Shown piece by piece: positions 6,770 to 24,639 of a stretch of DNA of 35,865 nt. Every line of letters begins with the position of its first letter. Positions within the stretch are counted from its first letter, which is position 1. This DNA is from Deltaproteobacteria bacterium. Lineage in GTDB: Bacteria > Myxococcota > Myxococcia > Myxococcales > 40CM-4-68-19. A program made the translations under genes and the position numbers. The stretch lies in NCBI GenBank assembly GCA_025350525.1, contig JANXXR010000006.1, forward strand, positions 1 through 35,865, given 5' to 3'. The notes beneath the pieces are model-generated. The model did not search any database, was not told where the DNA came from, and saw only the letters and a program-made list of their open reading frames with translations.

Positions 6770-9700
6770 ATGCGCGCACACCGGCCAGCGCTAGTCGCAG
6801 CGCTTTGCATTGCCGCCGCATCCTGTAATTCGGGTTCGCCCGCTGCGCCCGGCAAACGGGACCGCAGCCACGAGGTCATCTCGGATGCGGCCCACAACAG
6901 CGGCACGCCGGGAATCTATTTCCTCCGTCCCATGATGCCCGCGCAGCCGGCGCAACTCGGGCACAGCGCCCCGCCCGGGAGCTTCGGCGGCCCCTGGGTG
7001 GTCATCGATCGCATCTCGCTGCCCGCGGGATGCGTCAACGACTGCCCGGCGCAGGTGATCACGCCCAACGTCACCACCATCACCCGCACCGCCACCAGCG
7101 ACGGCACCGGCATTCCCGTCAGCAAGGGCGACGCGCGCAACCGGCTCGTCTACCACGTCAACCGCGTGCCGCCTCCGCCCGGCGACAGCGAGCCCGACGC
7201 CGACCTCGACGACGTGCCCGACGGCTACTGGTCGACGCACTGGGAGTCGGACGACTTCGGCACCCTGGTGAACGGCATCTACCGCGCTCACGTGTTCGTG
7301 GGCAGCGTCGCGCAGCCGCTCGAGCTCGGGTTCGCCGACATCGAGATCGTTCCCGACGGCATCTCGAACGCCGTCTGGAAGAAGATCGATCGCACCGAGT
7401 TCGTGCCGCTCAAGTTCGGGCACACCCTCCTCATCACCTTCCAGATCGAGCCTTCGGCGCTGGTCTGCCTGGGCGTCGCCTGCACCGCTTCGGACTCGTG
7501 CCACCTGGCGGGCGTCTGCGACCGCAGCACCGGCGCCTGCTCGACCCGGCCGCGCCGAACGGCACCTCTTGCGCGACCAACGGCGGTCAGTGCCACGGCG
7601 GGAGCTGCTCGTGCCCGACCGGGTACTCGCTCGCGAACGGGACCTGCACGCCGATCGACAGCTGCCTCATCCATCACGGCGGGTGCAACGGCGCTGCCGT
7701 CTGCACCAGCACCGGGCCCGGCCAGAACGTCTGCGGCTGCAACCCGGGCTACACCGGCGACGGCAAGAGCTGCACGCCCGGCCTCGCCATCACCGGCGTG
7801 ACCGACGGCGAGATCACCAACGCCGCCTCGGTGACGCCGGTGATCGTCTCTCCCGCGCCGGTGACGGCGGCGCTCGCCGGCGCGCCCTTCCTCTCCGGGA
7901 CCGCGGTCGCCGCCGAGGGAGATCACCTGCTCGCCGCGACGGCGGCAGACGCCTTCGGCAACCAGAAGTCGGCGACGGTGCACTTCTCCCTCGATCGAAC
8001 TCCGCCAGCCGTGGTCATCGCCGGGGTCAGCGACGGCGAGCTTCGCGCCGCGCCGGCGACCATCTCCTTCAGCGCCACCGACGCGCACCTCGCATCGGCG
8101 GCCGCGACCCTCGATGGCGCGCCCTTCGCCTCGGGGGGCACGGTCGCTAGCGAAGGCCTGCACCAGGTGGTGGTGACCGCTGCGGACGCCGCGGGAAACA
8201 GCGCCGTCGCCTCGGTGACGTTCCGCATCGTGCTGACGCCGCCCGCGATCGTGGTCGTGGCGCCGAGCGATGGCGCCTACCTCAACACCGCCACCGCCTC
8301 TGTGGTCGCGCAGGTCACCGACCAGGGCGGCGGCATCGCGCAGGTCCAGGCCAACGGCGTCGCGATGGTGTTCTCCACGGGCGCATTTCGCGCCGACCTG
8401 CCGCTGCTCGAGGGCGTGAACACCATCGCCGTCGCGGCCAGCGACCTGGTCGGCAACCGGTCGCAGGTGACCCTTTCGGTAATGCGCGACACGACACCGC
8501 CCGCGATCAACCTGACCTCGCCCGCCGACGGCGCGCACCTCGCGGCTGCGAGCGTGCAGGTGGTCGGCGTCGCCACCGACGCGAGCCCGCTGGTCGTGCG
8601 GGTCGACGGCGCGCCGGTGTCGCCGAGCTTCGCCACCACGGTGGCGCTGACTCCCGGGGCGAACCTGATCGTGGTCTTTGCCACCGACGCGGCCGGCAAC
8701 TCCTCCACCGTCACGCGCCAGGTGCGCTCGAACACGGTGCCGCCCGCGCTCGCGGTCCTGTCGCCGCCCGATGGCCTGATCACCAGCCAGACGACCATCG
8801 CGGTTTCCGGCACTGCCCCTCCCGGCGACAGCGCCGACACGCTCTCAGTCACCATCGACGGCGCGCCCGCGGCCCTGACCGGCGCGGCCTTCAGCGGCGC
8901 CGTCTCGCCCCCCGAGGGCGACCACACCATCGTCGTCACCGCCAAGGACAGCTACGGCCTTTCCGCGCAGCGGCAGATCCACCTCACGCGCGACACCACG
9001 CCGCCCGTGATCGCCATCAGCGGCGTGGCCGACGGCGAAATCCGCACCAGCCCCGTCAGCATCTCGTTCAGCGCCAGCGACGCGCACCTCTCTTCCGTCA
9101 GCGCCACGCTCGACGGCGCGCCCTTCGCGAGCGGAGGCACGGTGAAGAGCGCGGGGCCGCACGCGCTGGCCGTCCTCGCCAGCGACGCAGCAGGAAATGC
9201 GTCGGCCGTGTACTGCACTTCCGCCTCGCCCTTGCGCCGCCGCAGGTCACCATCCTCGCGCCTGCCGACGGCAGCTACGGTAACTCGCCCACCGCGGCCG
9301 TGGTCGCGCAGGTCACCGACGGCGGCGGCGGCATCGCGCAGGTCACCGCCAACGGCGTGCCGATGGCGCTGGGGGCAGGCGGGCTCTTCCGCGCCTCGGT
9401 GGCGCTCACCGAGGGCCACGACCTGATCGCGGTCACGGCCACCGATCTGGCGGCGCAGTCGGCCCAGCAGACGATCTCGGTCGTGCTCGACACGCAGCCC
9501 CCGGCCCTCAACCTCGCCGCTCCGGCCGAGGGCGCGTTCATCGCCGCGCTCAGCGCCACCGTCAGCGGCACCGTCACCGACGCGAGCCCGCTGGCGCTGA
9601 CGGTCAACGGCGCGGCGACGGCGGTGGCCGCCGGCGGAAGCTTCTCCATCACGGCGGCGCTGTCCGCGGGAGCGAACACCATCGTGGCGTTGGCGACCGA

Positions 9701-11867
9701 CGCGGCGGGCAACTCCTCGGCGGTGACGCGCCACCTGCGCGCAAACAGCGTGCCGCCCGCGCTCACCGTCTCGTCGCCGGCCGAAGGCTTGATCACCAAC
9801 CAGACCACCATCGCGGTCTCCGGGACTGCTACGCCCGGCGACAGCACCGACACGCTCTCGGTCACCATCGACGGTGCCCCCGCGGCCCGGTCGGGCTCCG
9901 CGTTCAGCGGCGCGATCTCGCCGCCCGAAGGCGATCACACCATCGTCGTCATCGCCACCGACAGCTACGGGCTCTCCTCGCGGCAGGAGGTGCACATCAC
10001 GCGCGACACCACGCCGCCGGCCATCGCCATCAGCGGCGTCGCCGACAGCGAGGTCCGGACCAGCCCCGTTACCATCTCGTTTAGCGCCACCGACGCGCAC
10101 CTGTCGTCCGTCAGCGCCACGCTCGACGGCGCCTCGTTTGCGAGCGGAGGGACGGTGAGCGCCGCGGGAGCTCACGCGCTCGTGGTGGTGGCCGCCGACG
10201 CGGCGAGCAACCAGGCGACGCAGACCGTGCACTTCAGCATTGCGGCAGCGGGCGTCTTCAGGCTCGGCGGAACCGTGACCGGCCTCCCCTCGAGCCTGGT
10301 CCTGGCGAACGGTGCGGAGCAGCTCACCGTCTCGGACAACGGCGCCTTCGCCTTCGACACGCCCCTGGCCAGCGGCCAGAGCTACTCCGTCGGCATCCAG
10401 TCGCAGCCCGCTCCGCCTGCCCAGACCTGCACCGTGACCAACGGCGCCGGCGTTGCCACCGCCGACGTGACCAACGTGGAAGTGGACTGCCCTCCGTTTG
10501 CCGTCGCCAGCGGGCTGGTTGGCCCGGCCCTCGTCAAGGTCAATGGCTCGTCGGTCTACTTCGCCACCTCGAGCACGGTCAGCTGCTACGGCACCGGCAC
10601 CCCGCGGGACGGCATCATGATGGTGCCCACCAGCGGCGGTACGCCGGTGGCCATCGCGCCCATCGACCATTTCGCCGGCAATTGCGGCGCCTATGGAATG
10701 CTCTTCGATTCGTCGTATCTCTATTGGGCCGACTATGCCGATGCGACCATCTGGCGGGCGACGCTGGCCGGCGTCGGCCCGACGCAGATCTTCAGTGGCG
10801 GACAATACCTGAACGGTCTCGCCATCGACGCGGCCGGCGGGTCGCTCTACTATCACCAATATGGCTATTCCTCGATCGGCCGCGTCTCGACGGCGGGAAG
10901 CGGGAATACCACCTTTGCCAGCGCCGGCTCGATCAACGGCGAGAACCTGACCAGCGACGGCGCCAACCTCTATTGGACCGACGCCACCGTCGGAACCGTC
11001 AACCAGGTCCCGTTCAGCGCCTCCCCGCCCGCCTCGCCGACCACCCTCGCAACGGGGGAGGCGGCCCCGTTCGCCCCCTTCGTCAGCTCCTCGTCGATCT
11101 ACTGGCTCGCCTCCGGCGCGCTCCGCTACGCCTCGCTGACGTCTCCGTCCGCTGCGTCGCTGGCGACCGGCCTCCTCGCGCCCAACAGCACGGTTGCGGA
11201 TGCGAGCTCCGTTTGGGTGCTCGCCTCGGGATCGGGTGCGTCCGACGGGCGCATCTATCAGATCCCAACTGGCGGCGGCGCGCCGGTGATCATCGCCAAG
11301 GGCCTCTACCAGCCGAGATCCCTGGCGCAGGACGCGAGCAACCTCTACTGAGCGAGCGCCAACACCAGCGGTAACCAGGACGGCACCATCCAGATGATCA
11401 GCAAGGGCCCCCGGACCAACAACTGCGCCGGCCTCGGCGTGGCCTGCCCGGTGGCAGGGGACGGTTGGTTGTGGGACAACGCGGGGCCGGGGTGCCGGTG
11501 CATCTTCAGCACCTGCAACTGCTGCGACTTCGGCGGCAACGGTTTAAGGGAGCTGAAGTCCCACGTCGTCACCTTCCTGGTGGCTGGCGAGTCGCTGTCC
11601 TTCACCTTCGCTCCCACCTTCAGCTCCTGCTTCACCGGCGCCGAGGACTTCACGGCCCGGTGGATCCCGGCTCCCGGAAACAACCACGCCGGCGTCACCA
11701 TCACACCGCAGGGGGGCGCCGCCGACCTGTTCCTCGTCAATGACGGCAGCCATCAAATGGTCGAGTCATCCACTTTCAACACGTACCACCCGCAGACCTT
11801 CACCATCGGCTTCCCCGACGGCCGGCAGTTCGTCATGGACGGCACGACCGGCTTGTTGGTCCACTGA
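6770..11867 (+). pseudogene. Large secreted lipoprotein: EGF-like Cys-rich region, Ig-like repeat array, beta-propeller-like region and C-terminal Cys-containing segment; disrupted by two frameshifts and one stop
   Basis: Coding continues across three ORFs: 6770-~7543 (frame 2), ~7547-~9210 (frame 1), ~9211-11351 (frame 3), then in the same frame 11352-11867. N-terminus MRAHRPALVAALCIAAASC is a lipobox-like signal. Homology-like sequence resumes exactly after each frame change. Confidence 0.75.
8020..10250 (+). repeat. Higher-order protein-coding repeat, period about 1.0 kb (about four Ig-like domains per unit)
   Basis: Equivalent motifs GVSDGELRAAPATISFSATDAHL (L codon at 8041), GVADGEIRTSPVSISFSASDAHL (I codon at 9040), GVADSEVRTSPVTISFSATDAHL (V codon at 10053). 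Confidence 0.8.
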
Positions 11868-11876
11868 CCTCGCACG

Positions 11877-13439
11877 CTACCGGTCGTGGTCGTTGTCGTG
11901 TTCCCTGCAGACGAAGTTGGCCGCGTCGTTCGTGCTGCCGCGCCCCTTGTACTCGGCGAACTTCGGGAACGGGCACAGCGGGCGAGTGACCGCGACGCCG
12001 TTGGCAGGGTTGTCGCCGGTGAACTTGGTCGCCACGATGCTGTCCGGTGCGCGGCCCTGCTCGACCCATTGCACGAGCGGGGAAACCGTATCGAAAACGT
12101 TGGGGCCGGGCCCGCCGCCGCAGTGCAAAACGCCAGGAGCGAGGAAGAGGCGGTAGAACTCTTGCGTCTCCTCGCCGCCCTCGCGGGCGGAGACGGCATC
12201 GAAGTAATTGATGCTGCTCAGCGGAGAGATGGCCGGATCGTCCCAGCCGTGCCACTGGAGCAGCTTGCCTCCGTGCGCACGGAAGCGGCGCAGATCCGGA
12301 TCGGTGGAGTTGATGGTGCCGGCGGTGGTGTAATCAGCAAAGGAGACGTCGGTGTCGAAGTTGAACTTCGTGTAATCGAAGGAGGGATCCTCGAAGATGA
12401 TGAAGGTGAAGAACTGGTTTCCGAAGAACGCCTGGATGGTGGGCGAGCCCGCAATCGGGAAGGGTCCGGTGATCCAAGCCGACCAGCCGCCGGGCGCAGC
12501 CTCCGCGCCGGGGGCATAGCCCGGGAAGATCTGTCGGCCGGTGCGCGGGTTCCGCGGCCCGTCGTAGATGGCCTTCACCGCGGCCACCTGCGCGGCGGTG
12601 AGACAGGAGGGGCTGTCTGCGCCTTTGCACTGGATGCTCGCCGGATCGAAGTGGCACTGGCGCGGATCGTTGAGGACGCCGTCGAGGACTCCGTCCAGCT
12701 TGTCGCACTGGGCGAGGGCCGCAGCCTGGATGGCGGGGAGCTTGTTGGCGGGGATGCTGCCGGCCGGATCCGCGAACAGCGCCTTTTCGTTCCAGATGAA
12801 GCCGGTAAAGAGGTGCGTCCAGTCGTTGGCGGGAGCGCCGGCGGAGATGCCGTCGAAATCCTCGGGGAAGCGCTGCGCCTCCATCAAGGCCTCGCGGCCC
12901 CCGTCGGAGCAGCCCACGAAGTACGATCGCGACGGTCCCGTTCCATAGAACGCGGCGATAATCGCTTTTGCCTTGTCGGTGGTCTCCTTCAGCGCGCGGA
13001 ACCCGAAATCGATGACCTGCTGGTGGTGTCCCGGTGCGAAGGTGGCCGTGCCGCCGACGTGCCCGTCGTCGGTGCCCGCTGCCGCATAGCCGAGTTGCAG
13101 GGCGCCGGCGAGCGAGCCATAGGGAACCGCGCCGGCGAATCCGCCGTTGCCCGACTGCTGATATCTGCCGTTCCAGGTGGAGGCGGGCATCCAGACTTCG
13201 CTGATGATGTGCGAGTCGGGGCTGGGCGCGGAGTTGACTGCCACGCGGCAGAAGGCGGGGAGATTTGCGAAGGTCTGACCATTGGGCGCTTTGTAAGAAC
13301 CCGCCGGAACCGATTGTGCCGCGGTGATGGTGGCGTGGGGCAGCGAGAGTCCGGTCAGGCTGCTGCAGGGCGCTGCGTGGACGGGAGCGGCGGCGAACGC
13401 GGCGCACGCGAATGCGAGCGCGGTAAGGATGCGAGTCAT
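11877..13439 (-). CDS. Tannase/feruloyl esterase family alpha/beta hydrolase, secreted
   Basis: 520 aa; signal peptide MTRILTALAFACAAFAAAPVHA; YFVGCSDGGREALMEAQRFPEDFDGISAGAPANDWT nucleophile region and HGWDDPAISP acid region typical of the family. Confidence 0.92.
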   Translation of the reverse strand: MTRILTALAFACAAFAAAPVHAAPCSSLTGLSLPHATITAAQSVPAGSYKAPNGQTFANLPAFCRVAVNSAPSPDSHIISEVWMPASTWNGRYQQSGNGGFAGAVPYGSLAGALQLGYAAAGTDDGHVGGTATFAPGHHQQVIDFGFRALKETTDKAKAIIAAFYGTGPSRSYFVGCSDGGREALMEAQRFPEDFDGISAGAPANDWTHLFTGFIWNEKALFADPAGSIPANKLPAIQAAALAQCDKLDGVLDGVLNDPRQCHFDPASIQCKGADSPSCLTAAQVAAVKAIYDGPRNPRTGRQIFPGYAPGAEAAPGGWSAWITGPFPIAGSPTIQAFFGNQFFTFIIFEDPSFDYTKFNFDTDVSFADYTTAGTINSTDPDLRRFRAHGGKLLQWHGWDDPAISPLSSINYFDAVSAREGGEETQEFYRLFLAPGVLHCGGGPGPNVFDTVSPLVQWVEQGRAPDSIVATKFTGDNPANGVAVTRPLCPFPKFAEYKGRGSTNDAANFVCREHDNDHDR

Positions 13440-16641: not shown

Positions 16642-17169
16642 GTGAGGGCGAGACGGAACGACCTCAGCGCGCTCGACCTCCAGATCGATCCCGAATGGGA
16701 AGCTGTGAAGGCGGTCTGGGACCCGTGCCGGGTCTTCCTCGAGCGGGGAGGGCTCGCGGATGACGAGACCTACCAGCTCGCCATGGTGGCGCGCGAGCTG
16801 CTCGAGAACGCCGTGAAGTTCGGAGCCTTCGCGGAAGGGGATCGCGTTCAACTCGCCATCCGCGTCGCCGCCGAAGACGTCGTGGTCGAAGTGAAGAGCC
16901 GCGTCGGCGTGGACGAGGCGCACCTGCGTCGCTTCGATCAGACCATCCAGTGGATCCGCGGGTTCCAATATCCCTTCGAGGCCTTCGTCGAACGGATGAA
17001 GCTCGTCTCCGCGCAGCCTTCCTCGGAGGGCGAGACCGGCCTCGGACTGACCCGCATCGCCTACGAAGGGAGAAGCATCATCGATTTCTACCTGGACGAA
17101 GACGACCTCCTTGCGGTCTCGGCGATCTACCGGCGGGACATCCCGGGGGGCGTTTGGAGAACTCCATAA
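16642..17169 (+). CDS. GHKL-type ATP-binding protein (anti-sigma-factor/partner-switching kinase-like)
   Basis: GTG start; N-box-like ELLENAVKFG and G-box-like ETGLGLTRIAYEG. Confidence 0.68.
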   Translation: MRARRNDLSALDLQIDPEWEAVKAVWDPCRVFLERGGLADDETYQLAMVARELLENAVKFGAFAEGDRVQLAIRVAAEDVVVEVKSRVGVDEAHLRRFDQTIQWIRGFQYPFEAFVERMKLVSAQPSSEGETGLGLTRIAYEGRSIIDFYLDEDDLLAVSAIYRRDIPGGVWRTP

Positions 17170-17528
17170 AGAAATGGGTCCAGACGGGTCTCGAGATCTC
17201 CCTCGCGCAGGAGCCAGGCGGACTTCGCCTGAGCTGGGTGGGCAAGAGCACGGCGCGCGAACCCCGGGTCTTCCTGGTGCCGATCCTGCTGGAGGCGTTC
17301 CAGAGCGCCCTGGCCGCCGCGCTTCCGTTGGTGCTCGACTTCACCGCGCTGGACTACATGAACTCGGCCACCCTGACCTCGGTGGTGAAAGCGTTCGAAG
17401 AGTCGCGCCGGCTCTCGGTTCCGATCGTCCTCGAGTACAGCCTTTCGCGAAGGTGGCAGGCGCTTTCGTTTGAAGCTTTCCGGACCTTCGAGACGCCCGA
17501 CGGCCGGATCAAGGTCACCGGCAAGTGA
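17154..17528 (+). CDS. STAS-domain-like protein (anti-sigma factor antagonist-like)
   Basis: Frame 3, probable TTG start at 17154 overlapping the previous gene; core PLVLDFTALDYMNSATLTSVVKAFEESRRLSVPIVLEY fits the STAS phosphoacceptor loop. Confidence 0.65.
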   Translation: MENSIKKWVQTGLEISLAQEPGGLRLSWVGKSTAREPRVFLVPILLEAFQSALAAALPLVLDFTALDYMNSATLTSVVKAFEESRRLSVPIVLEYSLSRRWQALSFEAFRTFETPDGRIKVTGK

Positions 17529-18928
17529 TCGGCGCGCCCGTCGCGGAGCCGCGGCGCAGGGGACGCTCCGTGCTCAGCGGGCGGCCGCTGACGTTCAGCG
17601 CCGGGGCGGCGAGCCGGCTCAGCCTCGAGGTGTCCTTCGAGGAAGGTGCCGTCCTCCCCGACGGCGCCGAACTGCAGTGGGTGGAGATCGAGCTGGCGCA
17701 GCTGGTCCGGCTCGGCCGGTGCCGCTTCGCCGCACAGGACGGCAAAAAAGAGGGCGCTGCCGGACGCTTGCTCTTCCTCGACGAGGTGTACGACTGCCGG
17801 ATCCTGATCCGCGACGGCAGGTTGATGGACCTCCGCGGCTTCTTCCAGAACCTGCCCCTGGTCCTCTTGCAGCGCGAGCGCATCCGGCCCGAGTTCAAGG
17901 AGCACTGCGCGCGGGTCGTCTACGACCTCGCGGTCTACAAGCGCTTCTTCGACGAGCAGGACCGGATCATCGACGAGGAGCCGGCCGACGTCGCCGGCGC
18001 CGCGCGCGAGGCGCTGCTCAAGGCCGACGGCCGGCGCTTCCTCGGCTTCCTCGACGAGAAGGTCCGGGAGCTCGACGCGCTCGTCCACGACTACACCTAC
18101 GAAGAGCACGAGCGGCACGGCTTCTATCTGCGCCGCTTGCTCTGGCCCTATCTCATGTCGGGCAAGATCCTGCGCCGCTCAAACTTGAAACCGCAGGGCT
18201 ATGCCGGCGATGCCGAGATGATGATCATGGTCTACGAGAACAGCTACGCAGGCCGGACCGTCTTCGACCAGCTGATGCACAAGCACGCGGTCGAGACGGC
18301 CGCGGCCGAAGCGGTCCGCTCCCGGCGGCGGCTGGTCCCCCGCGTGCTGCGGGAAGTGGAGGAACGGGTTGGGGATCCAGGGCCAGACGGATTCCACTTC
18401 CTCTCGCTGGCCGCTGGACCCGCGAGCGAGCTCGAGGAAGTCTTCCGCGGTCCGGGCGACGTAGAGCGGTTCAACCTGACGCTCCTGGATCAGGACCCCG
18501 TCGCGCTCGACCTGGCCCGGGCGACCGTGCGGCGGATCGAGGTGGCGCGGGGGGCTGCCCTGTCCGTGCGCTACCTGCAGCAGTCGGTTCGAACCGTGAT
18601 TCGCAGCCGCGACCTGGGGAGCGTGGTGGGACGGCATCACTTCGTCTACTCGATGGGGCTCTTCGACTACCTCTCCGCGCCCGTGGCGCGCGCGGTCCTG
18701 GCAAAGATCTGGGAGGTGGTGCGCCCCGGCGGCACGCTCCTCGCCGGCAATTTCCACTCCAGCACCGCCTCTCGCTACCACATGGCGTACTGGGCCGACT
18801 GGTCGCTTTGGTACCGCACCGAGGAGAGCTTCTTGGCCCTCGCTGAAGGTCTCGAGTACTCCTCGGCGCGCATCGATTTTGATGAGACCGGCTGCCAGAT
18901 GTTCCTTCGCCTGGAGAAACCCGCCTGA
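17525..18928 (+). CDS. SAM-dependent methyltransferase related to PhcB-like 3-hydroxypalmitate methyl ester synthases, with N-terminal PilZ-like region
   Basis: GTG start overlapping the upstream TGA; KILRRSNLKPQGYAGDAEMMIMVYENSYAGRTVFDQLMHKHAVETAAAEAVRSRR is characteristic of this family; SAM motif I-like FHFLSLAAGPASELEE and MTase core FVYSMGLFDYLSAPVARAVLAKIWEVVRPGGTLLAGNF. Confidence 0.8.
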   Translation: MIGAPVAEPRRRGRSVLSGRPLTFSAGAASRLSLEVSFEEGAVLPDGAELQWVEIELAQLVRLGRCRFAAQDGKKEGAAGRLLFLDEVYDCRILIRDGRLMDLRGFFQNLPLVLLQRERIRPEFKEHCARVVYDLAVYKRFFDEQDRIIDEEPADVAGAAREALLKADGRRFLGFLDEKVRELDALVHDYTYEEHERHGFYLRRLLWPYLMSGKILRRSNLKPQGYAGDAEMMIMVYENSYAGRTVFDQLMHKHAVETAAAEAVRSRRRLVPRVLREVEERVGDPGPDGFHFLSLAAGPASELEEVFRGPGDVERFNLTLLDQDPVALDLARATVRRIEVARGAALSVRYLQQSVRTVIRSRDLGSVVGRHHFVYSMGLFDYLSAPVARAVLAKIWEVVRPGGTLLAGNFHSSTASRYHMAYWADWSLWYRTEESFLALAEGLEYSSARIDFDETGCQMFLRLEKPA

Positions 18929-18948: not shown

Positions 18949-21744
18949 TCAGCGGATGTGGATCGCCCCGGAGGTCAGCTTGCCGGTGATCGCCGTCCCG
19001 TCGCTGAGGGTGAGGGTGATCGAGCCGCCCCCCACCGCGCTGTCCACCGCCACCAGCGTGAAGGTGACGAGGTGGCCGGCGTTGACACCCGCGCCGGTCA
19101 TGGTCGCGCTGTGGCTGACCGGATCCGAGGAGGCCGAATCCGTCCGCGTCGAGCGGAAGCTGGTGCCGGTGCCGTCGTCGCGGTAGTCGGCCTTCTCGCC
19201 GCCGTCGTTGCAGACGAAGGCGAACTGGCCGTGCTTTCCGTTGCCCTCGTCGGTCTCGCCGGCGCCGTCGTCGTGCTGGTCGCCGCAAGTCAGCGGCACC
19301 GGCCCGACGTTGCCCAGCGTGAAATCGAACGACCGGGTCGCGTCCACGTCGGTGTAGAGGTCGGTGCGGGAGTTGTCCCGGCCAAAGGTGAGCGCGGTCA
19401 CGTTGTAGAGCGTGCTGCCGAGGATGGGGCGGCCCGGACCGAAGCCGTCCAGCGGCACGTCGATGGTGATGATGTCCCCCTGCACGGAGCCCTGGGCGGC
19501 AAACTCGGCCGGGTACTGCACCACCTTGCAGGTGTCGGGGGTGGTGATGACGCAGCCGGTGCCGGGGACCGCGCCCTGCGAGGAGGAGCCGCTGCCCGCG
19601 AAGAAGCTGGGCGGGCCGCCCGCCACCGACTCGGCCCCGAGGTAGAAGATGCGGTACGACTCCTCTCCCTGGTCGCCCCGCGAGAGCGCCTGGAAGCGGG
19701 TCAGCCAGACCGCGTTGGCCTTGCCCGGCGGCGGCGCGAAGCTCGCCAGCTTCTGCAGACCCATCTGCACCCGCAGCGTCTTGAGGTCGGGCTGGCTGAG
19801 CGCGATGCCGGTGAAGTCCAGCTGCGGCTGATTGGCGCCGGGTCCGGTCACCGGCGCGTAGTGCGGCGACTGCGCGTCGCCGGTCGGGTCGAAGGTCGGG
19901 TCTCCCGGCGGCGTCTCGGAGAGGACCCTGCCAGAGGCGGTCGGGCCGGCCAGCTGGCGGGTCTCGAAGAGGTGCGCGCCGTGGTGCTGGCTGGTGGTGT
20001 CGTTGTAGACGATGCGCAGCCTGCCGTCGCGGTCGAGGGTGATGCCGAAGTAGTCGGCCATGGTGCGATCGCCGCCGCTGATGCAGAGCGTGCCGTTGGT
20101 GCAGATCTGGCCGTAGTGCATCGGCTTCTCGGTGAAGCGCGCCTGGGCGAAGGCCGGCGTCGCCGAGAGCGCATTGGTGATGACCGAGGCGTAGCCGTAC
20201 CACTTGTACGCGGTGGCGGCCTGCCGGTTTACCGTCCACGAGGCCATGAGATTTGGATCGAGGCGCTCGGAGGTGCCGTACCAGACGGCCACCAGCGTGC
20301 CGGCGGCGCCCGCCTGCGTCCAGGGCATGATGTTGGTGTTCGCGTCCGGGCCGCCGTTGATGCGGACGATGGGACCCCAGTGCGCCCCCGCGTCGGTCGA
20401 GGCGGTGTAATAGACGTTGTAGTCCTTCCGATCGACCCACACCGCGTAGAGGTTTCCGGCGGCGTCGGTCGAGACCACGGGGAAGAGGTTGCTGACGTTG
20501 CCGCCGGGCGAGGCCGGCGTGTTGACGGTGTGGAAGAGGATGCCGGTGCGCTGGCCAGGGTCCACGTGGCCCACCGAGATGATCACGTGGTCGCCGCCGC
20601 CGCAGGGCAGGTAGAGGTTGCGGCGCACCGGATCGAAGCGCATCTGGCCGCAGGGCGCGCCGGTGTTGACCGTCGTCTGCGGCGCCGCCGTGGCAGGCTG
20701 GTAGACGATGCCGCCCACCGGATCGGCCGGGCCCGTCGAGCCGGGCGTCGAGTAGACGTACGGCCCGGTTTGGAGCTGGCGGAAGGTGAGAAAGACGGTG
20801 TTGTCGGTCGCCGCCGCGGTCAGGCCGTTGTCGACCGCGAGCCACTGCCGGTCGATGGCGGCGTTGGCTCCCCCGAACGGATTCTTGCGAAAGCTGTTGC
20901 CGTGGTCGTTGGAGACGGAGACCCCGATGCCGGTGAGATCCTCGAGGTCGGAGAAGTATGCGTAGCCCTGGTCGTCGACGACGACGTCGGTGTCGCCGCC
21001 GCCCGGGGGCGGGTCGGGCCGCACGCCGACGCTGAGGGGCGTGACGATGTTGAACTGGTCGCCGCGGTCCACCGAGCGGTGGATGAACGACTGGTTGGTG
21101 CTGGCGCCGAACGGCCCCGACTCCCAATAGGCGCCCGAGCTGTCGATGACGCTGAGCGGCTCGCCCTCGGTGCGCTGCGCGTCGACCACTGTCGCCGGAC
21201 CGAAGGCGAGTCCTCCGGTGGTGCGGGGCGGACCCTGCGTCGGGCCGCCGGGGGTCGAGGCGAAGAGGGCCGTCCCGCTGTAGCCTCCCATCACCACGGT
21301 GGCGGGCAGCACGCGGACTTCATACGTGCCCGACGGATTCTTCAGGAACACGCTTTCGGTGCAGGTCCCGCCTGCCGACTTTCCCACCTGCGTCCCCGCC
21401 GCGTCGTAGACGTAGAGGTCGAAGTCGTTGAGCGTGCTCGGGCAGGTGATGTCGATCCGGACCCCGCCGTTGTTGGTGGCCCAGTAGGAGCTGGGGACGT
21501 CCACCGTCAGGTAGTAGTGATCGCAGCGGAGGTTGGCCGGGTCGGCCGCGGGCGGGCAGGCGGCCGGATCGGCGTTGACGCCGACCACGTACGTCTGCCC
21601 GGTCCAACTCGCCGAGGTCGAAGCCGGACCGACGGTGCCGGCAGGCGGTGTCGCAGCCCGGGACGAGAAGGCGGCGAGCAGGGCCGCGACGGCGAGTCCA
21701 GCCGGCGACAGGCGGTGCGAGTGAGTCCACTGAGCGCAGGTCAT
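18949..21744 (-). CDS. Secreted BNR/sialidase-like beta-propeller protein with N-terminal PPC-like domain
   Basis: 931 aa; signal peptide; repeated propeller motifs (SFIHRSVDRGDQF, VSVSNDHGNSFRKNPF, YYTASTDAGAHWGPI); N-terminal NDFDLYVYDAAGTQVGKS PPC-like. Confidence 0.8.
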   Translation of the reverse strand: MTCAQWTHSHRLSPAGLAVAALLAAFSSRAATPPAGTVGPASTSASWTGQTYVVGVNADPAACPPAADPANLRCDHYYLTVDVPSSYWATNNGGVRIDITCPSTLNDFDLYVYDAAGTQVGKSAGGTCTESVFLKNPSGTYEVRVLPATVVMGGYSGTALFASTPGGPTQGPPRTTGGLAFGPATVVDAQRTEGEPLSVIDSSGAYWESGPFGASTNQSFIHRSVDRGDQFNIVTPLSVGVRPDPPPGGGDTDVVVDDQGYAYFSDLEDLTGIGVSVSNDHGNSFRKNPFGGANAAIDRQWLAVDNGLTAAATDNTVFLTFRQLQTGPYVYSTPGSTGPADPVGGIVYQPATAAPQTTVNTGAPCGQMRFDPVRRNLYLPCGGGDHVIISVGHVDPGQRTGILFHTVNTPASPGGNVSNLFPVVSTDAAGNLYAVWVDRKDYNVYYTASTDAGAHWGPIVRINGGPDANTNIMPWTQAGAAGTLVAVWYGTSERLDPNLMASWTVNRQAATAYKWYGYASVITNALSATPAFAQARFTEKPMHYGQICTNGTLCISGGDRTMADYFGITLDRDGRLRIVYNDTTSQHHGAHLFETRQLAGPTASGRVLSETPPGDPTFDPTGDAQSPHYAPVTGPGANQPQLDFTGIALSQPDLKTLRVQMGLQKLASFAPPPGKANAVWLTRFQALSRGDQGEESYRIFYLGAESVAGGPPSFFAGSGSSSQGAVPGTGCVITTPDTCKVVQYPAEFAAQGSVQGDIITIDVPLDGFGPGRPILGSTLYNVTALTFGRDNSRTDLYTDVDATRSFDFTLGNVGPVPLTCGDQHDDGAGETDEGNGKHGQFAFVCNDGGEKADYRDDGTGTSFRSTRTDSASSDPVSHSATMTGAGVNAGHLVTFTLVAVDSAVGGGSITLTLSDGTAITGKLTSGAIHIR

Positions 21745-21756
21745 GGCGAGCTCCGG

Positions 21757-24639
21757 TTAGCGGGGGTGGATGGAGAGGACGCCGGACACCAGCGGCGCGC
21801 TCTTCTGATAGAGGAAGCCCAGCGGCCCGGTGATGGTCATGGTGAAGGTGCCGACCTGCGTCGCCGTCGGCAGGTTGCAGGCGGTGAACGCGTAGGTGTA
21901 GCCGGGCTGGAGGTTCACGGTGGCGGCGCCGAGCAGGTTCACGCAGGCGCCGTTCGAGTAGGTGACGGCCTGCGAGCCGCCCACGCTCTGCATGGTGAAG
22001 TTGTCGCGGGGCGCGCTGTACTCGACGTTGCTGTTCTCCGGGTGGTTCGGGTCGTCGGAGAAGCTGGCGTGATCGCGGTCGGCAGCGTCCGAGTCGTCGC
22101 CCTCGCCGCTGTCGCCGCCGCCGCTGCCCGGAGGAGCGCCCACCCAAGTGGCGGTGTCGAACCGGTATGTGCCGTTGAGGCGGGTGAGGTCGGAGATGCC
22201 GTCGCCCCCGCCGGTCTGGGCCTGGCCGCGCAGGCCAATAAAAGTCGCGCCGGAGACGATGGCCCCGTGCTTCTGCAGCGCGTTCAGCTTCGCCAGCGCG
22301 ACCTTGACGGTGACCTGCTTGTTGACGAGGTCGAAGGCGCCGAAGTCCGCCGGACCGACGGTGGTGTAGACCATGTGCCCGCCGGAATCGCGCACCGCGG
22401 TTCCGTACGAGAACGTCTGCACTCCCTGCGGGTCGGTCGCGGCCAGCAGGAACCACTGGTCGGCGTGGTCGGAGACGAACGGCCGCGTCGGGTTGGTGGC
22501 GAAGCTCATCCGCCAGGTGCTATCGGGCGGCACCGAGGTCAGCCCCGACAAGCGCATGGTGGCGCTGATCAAGGTCGTCGGCGTGGTGACGTCGCAGCCG
22601 TATTGCACCGAGAGGATGTCCACCGGGCTGTCAGTCGGGGTGACCGCGAGGAGCCCGGCGGCCTGATCGTGCAGCTCGTCGACGACCTGGGGCTGCGTCG
22701 GGTCCGGCGCCGGCGCGCGATCGGTTCCCTGGATCTTCACCTGCGCGCCGGTGTGGAGGCTCAAGCCGCCGGTCTGGTGGGTGACGTACGGGTTCCCCTT
22801 GTAGTCGTTGTGGTCGTCGTCGAAGGTGATGAAGGCGAGGCCCTGCGGGTCGGTCTCCAGCTGGAAGAAGTCGCCCAGGTTGCGGTTGGCCGCGCCGCCG
22901 AATCCGCCCAGGCTGATGTTCGAGCCGTGCACGTAGTGGTCGCTCGCCACCGACTGGTAGAAGGTCGGGTTCTGCGCGGTCGCGTTCAGGCTCTCGGCGA
23001 AGAAGACCTTCCAGTTGGCGGCGTCGTTGTTCTGGCCCTTGCCGTCGTCGGTGTCGGAGACCTCGGTGCCGTACCAGGCCACGGCGATGCTGCCCGGCTT
23101 CTTGCCGGTGGTGATCCAGGGCAAGAGCGAGGTCGAGGGGCTGGCGAGGTTGCTGACCTTCACCGGCTGCGTCCAGGTCTTGCCCTGATCGGAGGAGGAG
23201 GCGAGGTAGATGGCCACGCCGCCGTCCGAATAGGCGACGTAGACGGTGCCGTCGGGCGCCACCTTGCACACGGGAAAGAGCGCCGCGATCGTGGCCGTCT
23301 TTCCCGTGGCGGCGGTGACGGTGTGGAAGTCGGCCGCGGTCGGCCCCAGCGAGCGCACCGTCGGGTGGCCGATGGCGACGTTCAGCTGGTTGGCGCTGGT
23401 CCCCTGCATGCAGAAATAGACGGTGCCGTCGCGCTGATCGACGGTGACCGGGCCGGTGGTGTTGCCGCCCACGGCGGCGAGGACGGGCGGGCCATAGGAG
23501 AAGCCGGCGTCGGTGGAGCGGTTGATCCAGAACTTCGAGGTTGCCACGAGGCCGGTGAAGTCGCGGTAGGCGAGGTAGACGGTGTCGCTGCCGTCGAACT
23601 CCATCCAGTTGCGGTCGTCGAGGGGGCTGGCCGAGTTGCCCGCCGGGTTGCGCTGGTAGCTGTTGGCGCGGTCGAAGGAGCGCTGCGTGGAGATGTTGGC
23701 CGCCACCAGGCTGGAGAGCGCCAGCGCCGGCACGTTGCCGCCGCCCGACGTCTGGGGCAGCGCGAAGCCGACCGCCATGTCCATGTCGCCGCCGCCGTCG
23801 CCCCCCAGCTGGGGGTTCTGCTGGCCGGTGACCGAGTCGGGCATGCCCTTGTACGACGGGTTGAAGGAGTTGCCGCCTCGGTCGATCGAGGCGGTCGCCC
23901 TCCGCAAGAAAGGATCGTAGCTGGCGCTGTTCGGGTTCAGGTCGAAGCGCCAGAGGTCATCGCCGCCGGGCACTCCGCGGATGCCGCCCGCGTAGGCGTT
24001 TCCCTGGAAGTCGACCCGGACGCTCGGCTCGTTGTCGCCGGTCGCGGCGAAGGCCAGGAGCGTGCGGTTGCGGCTGAAGGAGATGCCGACCTTGCTGCCC
24101 GGCACGTAGTTCGCCACCCGCGGCGCGGGTCCGGCCGGAATGGCCTCGAGCGCGGCGGTGCCCGTGTAGGGATCGGAGGTCACCACCGCGAAGTAGATGG
24201 CGCGCACCGCGAAGGTGTCGTTGACGCCGGCCGCGACGACGCGGTCGATGTCGAGCGTGGTCTCCTCGCTGGTCTCGGGAACGCCTCCGCCCTTCGAGGC
24301 CACCAGCGGGCCGGAGACGGAGCCGGTGAAGACGTCCAGATCGTAATCGTTGTACTGGTTCACCCACGCGATCTTGAAGTGGATGCGCTTGCCGGTGTAG
24401 TCGCCCGGCGCGAGGCGCAGCGTGAAGGTGTCGCAGTTGGTACCCTCGATGCAGGTGGTCTCGCCCTGCGGGCTCGCGGCCACCGCGGCGAATCCGTTCC
24501 AGGTCACAGTGGCGCCGGGGCTGAGCGTGCCGCTGGCCGGCGTCGCGGCCCGGGCTTCGCGGTGAAAGGAGGACAAGCCGGCGGTCACCACCAGGGTCAC
24601 TGCCGCGGTCAGCGTCGCGAGCATCAACTTGGTTTTCAT
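21757..24639 (-). CDS. Secreted BNR/sialidase-like beta-propeller protein, paralogous to the downstream gene
   Basis: 960 aa; signal peptide; N-terminal ATPASGTLSPGATVTWNG...NDYDLDVFTG parallels the 931 aa protein; WINRSTDAGFSYGPP, ASSSDQGKTWTQPVKV BNR motifs. Confidence 0.8.
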   Translation of the reverse strand: MKTKLMLATLTAAVTLVVTAGLSSFHREARAATPASGTLSPGATVTWNGFAAVAASPQGETTCIEGTNCDTFTLRLAPGDYTGKRIHFKIAWVNQYNDYDLDVFTGSVSGPLVASKGGGVPETSEETTLDIDRVVAAGVNDTFAVRAIYFAVVTSDPYTGTAALEAIPAGPAPRVANYVPGSKVGISFSRNRTLLAFAATGDNEPSVRVDFQGNAYAGGIRGVPGGDDLWRFDLNPNSASYDPFLRRATASIDRGGNSFNPSYKGMPDSVTGQQNPQLGGDGGGDMDMAVGFALPQTSGGGNVPALALSSLVAANISTQRSFDRANSYQRNPAGNSASPLDDRNWMEFDGSDTVYLAYRDFTGLVATSKFWINRSTDAGFSYGPPVLAAVGGNTTGPVTVDQRDGTVYFCMQGTSANQLNVAIGHPTVRSLGPTAADFHTVTAATGKTATIAALFPVCKVAPDGTVYVAYSDGGVAIYLASSSDQGKTWTQPVKVSNLASPSTSLLPWITTGKKPGSIAVAWYGTEVSDTDDGKGQNNDAANWKVFFAESLNATAQNPTFYQSVASDHYVHGSNISLGGFGGAANRNLGDFFQLETDPQGLAFITFDDDHNDYKGNPYVTHQTGGLSLHTGAQVKIQGTDRAPAPDPTQPQVVDELHDQAAGLLAVTPTDSPVDILSVQYGCDVTTPTTLISATMRLSGLTSVPPDSTWRMSFATNPTRPFVSDHADQWFLLAATDPQGVQTFSYGTAVRDSGGHMVYTTVGPADFGAFDLVNKQVTVKVALAKLNALQKHGAIVSGATFIGLRGQAQTGGGDGISDLTRLNGTYRFDTATWVGAPPGSGGGDSGEGDDSDAADRDHASFSDDPNHPENSNVEYSAPRDNFTMQSVGGSQAVTYSNGACVNLLGAATVNLQPGYTYAFTACNLPTATQVGTFTMTITGPLGFLYQKSAPLVSGVLSIHPR

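Follow-up and report, generated by a model that had tools for sequence, protein, structure and literature searches.

A kinase-STAS-methyltransferase operon with likenesses to the SiaABCD and Phc systems in a myxobacterial genome

Three overlapping genes for a kinase, a STAS protein and a methyltransferase

The window, a 35,865-nucleotide stretch of contig JANXXR010000006.1 from a Deltaproteobacteria bacterium, carries at 16642-18928 on the + strand overlapping genes for a GHKL kinase, a STAS protein and a class I methyltransferase (Table 1). On re-checking, the coordinates, frames and end-to-start overlaps in the original prediction proved exact. TTG 17154 is the sole start codon in frame near the homologous N terminus of the STAS protein, and the STAS TGA and the methyltransferase GTG (17525) share letters as GTGA. 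The prediction overlooked the usual fourth gene, which encodes a membrane SpoIIE phosphatase; the window copy lacks it and has a convergent gene 3′ of the methyltransferase gene, where relatives have the phosphatase.

Other parts of the window hold further features. Two large tandem open reading frames (ORFs; 931 and 960 aa), convergent to the methyltransferase gene, occupy 18949-24639 on the - strand and are mutually alike in repeat-like motifs. Overlapping ORFs at 7030-9423 and 9300-11348 (+), with repeated Glucodextranase-B/Ig-like domains, are perhaps a single gene broken by a frameshift. A Tannase/feruloyl esterase family protein is encoded at 11877-13439 (-).

Table 1. Genes, domains and motifs of the three-gene locus in window coordinates
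Feature	Position	Strand	Details or basis
GHKL (HATPase_c) kinase, SiaB / slr1658-like	16642..17169	+	175 aa, GTG start
N-box ELLENAVKFG, kinase residues 52-61	16795..16824	+	alignment of 27 relatives
ATP-lid / G2-like box ETGLGL, kinase residues 131-136	17032..17049	+	alignment of relatives
STAS-domain protein, SiaC-like	17154..17528	+	124 aa, TTG start, 16-bp overlap with kinase gene
Candidate phosphoacceptor Ser71 in Y68-M-N70-S71-A	17364..17366	+	alignment, SiaC register
PhcB-like SAM-dependent methyltransferase	17525..18928	+	467 aa, GTG start overlaps STAS stop
Methyltransferase N-terminal all-beta domain, residues 8-92	17546..17800	+	model, sister-clade comparison
Methyltransferase helical middle region, residues 93-285	17801..18379	+	model, conservation
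GYAGD family signature in helical region	18197-18211	+	family alignment
Rossmann-type SAM-binding catalytic domain of methyltransferase	18380..18925	+	model, fold match, conservation

Curated Pfam models recognized all three window proteins weakly, with scores under their cut-offs, and matched relatives more strongly, which bears out the predicted identities. The window kinase matched HATPase_c (E=2e-5) and HATPase_c_2 (E=6e-5), both slightly short of the curated cut-off, and HATPase_c_2 matched all 27 kinase relatives (best 5e-8). The top curated family for all 27 was the slr1658 superfamily, which outscored SiaB_fam_kinase (1/27 at E<=0.001) and DUF6272 (9/27); the window kinase itself scored 37.6 bits against an NCBIfam cut-off of 100. 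The proposed N- and G-box-like motifs held up across the 27 relatives, with E52, L53, E55, N56, K59 and G61 invariant in the N-box and L134 and G135 invariant in the lid.

The STAS protein matched Pfam STAS at E=5e-4, under the cut-off. Pfam SiaC matched 14 of 24 STAS relatives (best 1e-7), the window protein not being among them. AlphaFold gave the window protein a SpoIIAA/RsbV/SiaC fold (pLDDT 94), and SiaC chains made up eight of the best 50 PDB fold matches of this model, including those in the SiaB-SiaC complex 6kko and the SiaC-SiaD complex 7e6g. The loop DYMNSATLT had been proposed to contain a phosphorylatable Ser or Thr. Y68, N70 and S71 of this loop are invariant in the 24 relatives, and profile alignment places S71 in register with SiaC T68, the phosphorylation site within LLYLNTSSIK (PMC7647112). 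In the SiaC-SiaD structure, SiaC touches the stalk of SiaD through Y65, N67, T68 and S69, and a phosphate on T68 prevents SiaD binding (PMC8457831). The first three of these contact residues correspond to the invariant Y68, N70 and S71.

The original prediction had invoked RsbW/RsbV-type switching. The partner-switch kinase and STAS protein stand; the nearest model, though, is SiaABCD, with a SiaC-type STAS protein, an enzyme target and a membrane PP2C phosphatase. In a classical RsbW/RsbV switch, the kinase would also be an anti-sigma factor, freed by the STAS protein, and the methyltransferase would be a bystander or a member of the regulon. We consider this very improbable. It is true that SpoIIAA/RsbV and SpoIIAB are also among the fold matches of the STAS protein and the GHKL kinase, but the SiaC and slr1658 profiles beat the anti-sigma families in most members, no recurrent sigma factor gene was noticed in the operon neighbourhoods, and the constant partner is the methyltransferase.

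Recurrence of the operon and its membrane phosphatase

The gene triplet, whose conservation in other genomes the original prediction had named as a test of itself, is present as a paralogue in the same genome and at 29 loci in total from Myxococcota, Thermodesulfobacteriota and Neomarinimicrobiota. Scanning of genome contigs yielded 13 loci, which belong to Myxococcota, Desulfobacterales/Syntrophaceae and Neomarinimicrobiota; the order HATPase-STAS-MTase-(TM)SpoIIE was found at all 13, one being interrupted by a contig end. The kinase and STAS genes lie upstream of the methyltransferase gene at 24 of the 29 loci. In five relatives (L051-L053, L055 and L059), a STAS gene lies beyond the phosphatase gene, outside the kinase-methyltransferase-phosphatase block; in L051, L053, L055 and L059, two STAS paralogues flank the operon and none lies inside, a possible multi-target switch.

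A census of 195 Myxococcota genomes yielded 20 full-length methyltransferases of this clade. The kinase gene adjoins all 20 on the same strand, and the arrangement is therefore far above chance. Conversely, 18 of the 20 kinases with E<1e-60 lie beside a methyltransferase, and the other two are both at contig ends. Mirror-tree correlations among the four genes (r 0.67-0.81) indicate co-inheritance and do not separate interaction from common descent.

Additional arrangements were observed at individual loci. At L109:3716-6434, a kinase gene and a TM-SpoIIE gene accompany a divergent STAS gene, with no methyltransferase found nearby. At L005, L006, L007 and L011, a second receptor with a diverged membrane domain follows the four-gene operon; the one scanned, in L005, is a PAS hybrid histidine kinase.

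The phosphatase membrane domain adjoins 19 of the 20 full-length Myxococcota methyltransferases, the window copy being the sole exception. In a methyltransferase tree, the window copy clusters with those of Anaeromyxobacter (support 98/96), and in the three Anaeromyxobacter sister copies (L003, L004 and L047) the phosphatase gene directly follows the methyltransferase gene. Since the window copy groups with copies that keep the phosphatase, its absence is a secondary loss. The second copy in the same genome, on contig C379, is 40-42% identical and has a gene for a membrane SpoIIE phosphatase after it. Thus, the window copy either uses the C379 phosphatase or is locked in one state.

One explanation for the window copy is that of a partial or decaying paralogue: having lost its own receptor-phosphatase, it would no longer switch, or would borrow the C379 phosphatase. 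The convergent gene at the position of the sister phosphatases fits this idea, as does the Ala after S71: of the STAS proteins encoded between HATPase and MTase, only that of the window copy has SA in place of SS. However, none of the three overlapping frames is interrupted, and the kinase, STAS protein and methyltransferase retain their invariant positions. We regard this explanation as unlikely.

The methyltransferase and its Phc-type partner

The window methyltransferase matched Pfam Methyltransf_25 weakly (E=3e-4), and this family matched all 29 methyltransferase relatives (best 5e-11). The structural model (pLDDT 91.6) begins with an all-beta domain, continues in long helices and ends in a SAM-binding fold, in which motif I, SLAAGPASEL (A296-G298-P299-A300), and an acidic loop, LLDQD (320-324), are conserved. 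The clade-specific conserved residues are scattered through both the helical and the Rossmann parts, the N-terminal domain having only one of them, and no single docking site emerges from this pattern. By analogy with the SiaD stalk, the helical region is a candidate docking surface for the STAS protein.

The top PDB fold match of the methyltransferase model was 3ocj, a Bordetella protein that is itself uncharacterized and gives no lead to a substrate. A PDB sequence search with the methyltransferase profile returned weak CheR matches only.

The N-terminal domain had been predicted to be PilZ-like. In an hmmscan, Pfam PilZ matched none of the 29 methyltransferases of the window clade, none contains the DxSxxG motif, and direct profile comparison against 11 PilZ domains from this genome yielded a probability of 0.2%. 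By profile, no canonical PilZ domain is recognized in the window clade, and binding of c-di-GMP by this clade is unsupported. However, methyltransferases of the sister clade, which is linked to histidine kinases, carry a genuine PilZ domain at the equivalent position (7 of 10 over the Pfam cut-off), and the N-terminal profiles of the two clades align colinearly, if weakly. Because the sister clade has a true PilZ at the same place, a degenerate PilZ-like barrel lacking the c-di-GMP-binding motif is the likeliest reading, and in this reduced sense the prediction survives. The PilZ domains suggest c-di-GMP regulation of the sister enzymes, an input that the window clade may have swapped for a STAS switch.

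Most members of one set of Myxococcota sister methyltransferases (L061, L062, L064, L068-L072, L081 and L085) bear PilZ, with a DVSQNG-type motif. Each enzyme of the set is followed by a kinase with a PhcS-type membrane domain, a hybrid histidine kinase where scanned. The loci of this set are candidate c-di-GMP-gated Phc-like systems.

Hydropathy analysis of the SpoIIE proteins revealed five clear hydrophobic segments, possibly six, at the N terminus. A profile built solely from this membrane part, when run against all neighbourhood ORFs, matched only proteins adjacent to methyltransferases and nothing unrelated; matches included hybrid histidine kinases, a guanylate cyclase and a PhcS-like kinase of Paraburkholderia (E=2.7e-13). 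Across Myxococcota genomes, 40 of 49 copies of the membrane domain (E<1e-11) adjoin such a methyltransferase, and several of the other nine are at contig ends. No PhcS-type membrane sensor is present beside the window copy. A third kind of output occurs at L063:5335-8247, where the protein encoded after a methyltransferase joins this membrane domain to a guanylate/adenylate cyclase.

The Paraburkholderia kinase belongs to a phcBSR-like operon on plasmid pPHS1_P of P. graminis (L086), with the order methyltransferase, histidine kinase, response regulator, response regulator, which is the layout of phcBSRQ (PMC6989110). The window methyltransferase found the methyltransferase of this operon by tblastn at E=7e-17, and a family HMM, seeded from the window clade and then widened to sister methyltransferases, found it at E=2e-102. 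The assignment to a PhcB-like family, part of the original prediction, is upheld by this homology, which was established with the enzyme of the phcBSR-like Paraburkholderia operon. In Ralstonia, hydroxy fatty acid methyl esters are made by PhcB and sensed by PhcS (PMC8578825). The distribution of the membrane domain indicates that the pairing of enzyme and receptor predates the choice of output. It is chiefly on this ground that we argue for a receptor that senses something tied to the enzyme.

The kinase gene was found with none of 35 sister methyltransferases, so STAS control is dispensable for the enzyme family. A possible, if less probable, alternative to the model favored below is a one-way loop, as in Phc, in which the methyltransferase makes an autoinducer constitutively and the SpoIIE receptor senses this product and dephosphorylates the STAS protein. 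The STAS protein would then act on another enzyme, a sigma factor or a transcription factor, and would not contact the methyltransferase. Such a loop would accommodate the receptor domains that adjoin methyltransferases with other outputs and no STAS protein (the hybrid histidine kinases, L063 and the phcBSR-like set), as well as the extra STAS genes beside some operons. It accounts less well for kinase and STAS genes that are translationally coupled and precede the methyltransferase gene at most loci, and SiaC, the nearest characterized relative, targets the enzyme of its own operon (PMC8457831).

A proposed Sia-type switch in a Phc-type module

We favor a model, held at about even confidence, in which the three genes represent three-quarters of a SiaABCD-like circuit whose target enzyme is a PhcB-like methyltransferase and not a diguanylate cyclase; in brief, a Sia-type partner switch within a Phc-type module of signal enzyme and receptor. 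The GHKL kinase would phosphorylate the STAS protein at Ser71, and a membrane receptor-phosphatase (5-6 TM helices plus SpoIIE/PP2C) would remove this phosphate once its membrane domain receives a signal. Unphosphorylated STAS protein, by analogy with SiaABCD, would bind the methyltransferase and change its activity. The enzyme would probably make a small hydrophobic methyl ester. As in PhcBS, the receptor-phosphatase may sense this product and close a feedback loop, because the same membrane domain is found on histidine kinases paired with sister methyltransferases. Counting against this model are the missing phosphatase beside the window copy, the sister methyltransferases that do without the kinase, the scores of the window proteins under family cut-offs, the STAS genes outside the block in five relatives and the L109 set without a methyltransferase.

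SiaABCD of Pseudomonas aeruginosa (PMC7647112, PMC8457831, PMC7278518) is likewise an operon for a membrane PP2C, a GHKL-type kinase, a STAS phosphoprotein and an enzyme. The kinase, STAS protein and phosphatase here pair off with SiaB, SiaC and SiaA, tentatively in the case of SiaB, with the methyltransferase in the place of SiaD. At the start of helix 2, the candidate phosphoacceptor sits in the Y-x-N-[ST]-[SA] register shared with SiaC. The systems differ in that the enzyme here is a methyltransferase in every locus, whereas SiaD is a GGDEF diguanylate cyclase; in gene order (here kinase-STAS-enzyme-phosphatase); and in the PhcS-type sensor with 5-6 TM helices. Sequence similarity is weak, and the SiaA-like membrane PP2C, missing beside the window copy, is present in the C379 paralogue as in nearly all Myxococcota copies.

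The Phc system of Ralstonia and relatives (PMC6989110, PMC8578825) also has a homologous methyltransferase and a homologous membrane sensor domain side by side; this likeness was measured on the Paraburkholderia graminis pPHS1_P operon. In Phc, output is through a histidine kinase and response regulators, whereas here it is through a SpoIIE phosphatase, a kinase and a STAS protein. For the cyanobacterial slr1658/slr1659 regulators, the kinase family matches all 27 relatives and the STAS partner also matches, weakly; however, the window kinase falls far under the cut-off, and the literature examined places none of them in an operon with a methyltransferase. In HsbA-HsbD and BgrV-BgrR (cited in PMC8457831), a STAS protein also governs an enzyme and not a sigma factor, although the target enzymes are diguanylate cyclases.

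A literature search, partial in coverage, for methyltransferases under STAS control or for Phc systems linked to SpoIIE returned nothing relevant, and within that coverage the conserved four-gene circuit is, as far as we found, apparently undescribed. By analogy with the Sia and Phc systems, it may place a lipid-type communication signal under a protein phosphorylation switch. A more speculative and rather doubtful extension is that it represents a widespread third type of lipid signaling, in which a self-made signal would act through a receptor-phosphatase and a STAS switch on its own synthase, with no histidine-kinase cascade.

The enzyme-directed partner switches in the literature examined target diguanylate cyclases, and a methyltransferase target would broaden their scope. 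The receptor domain of Phc quorum sensing is also found on protein phosphatases, which joins two fields. These loci offer orphan receptors open to testing, together with candidate synthases of lipid signals, in Anaeromyxobacter as well as in other bacteria without a known signal of this kind.
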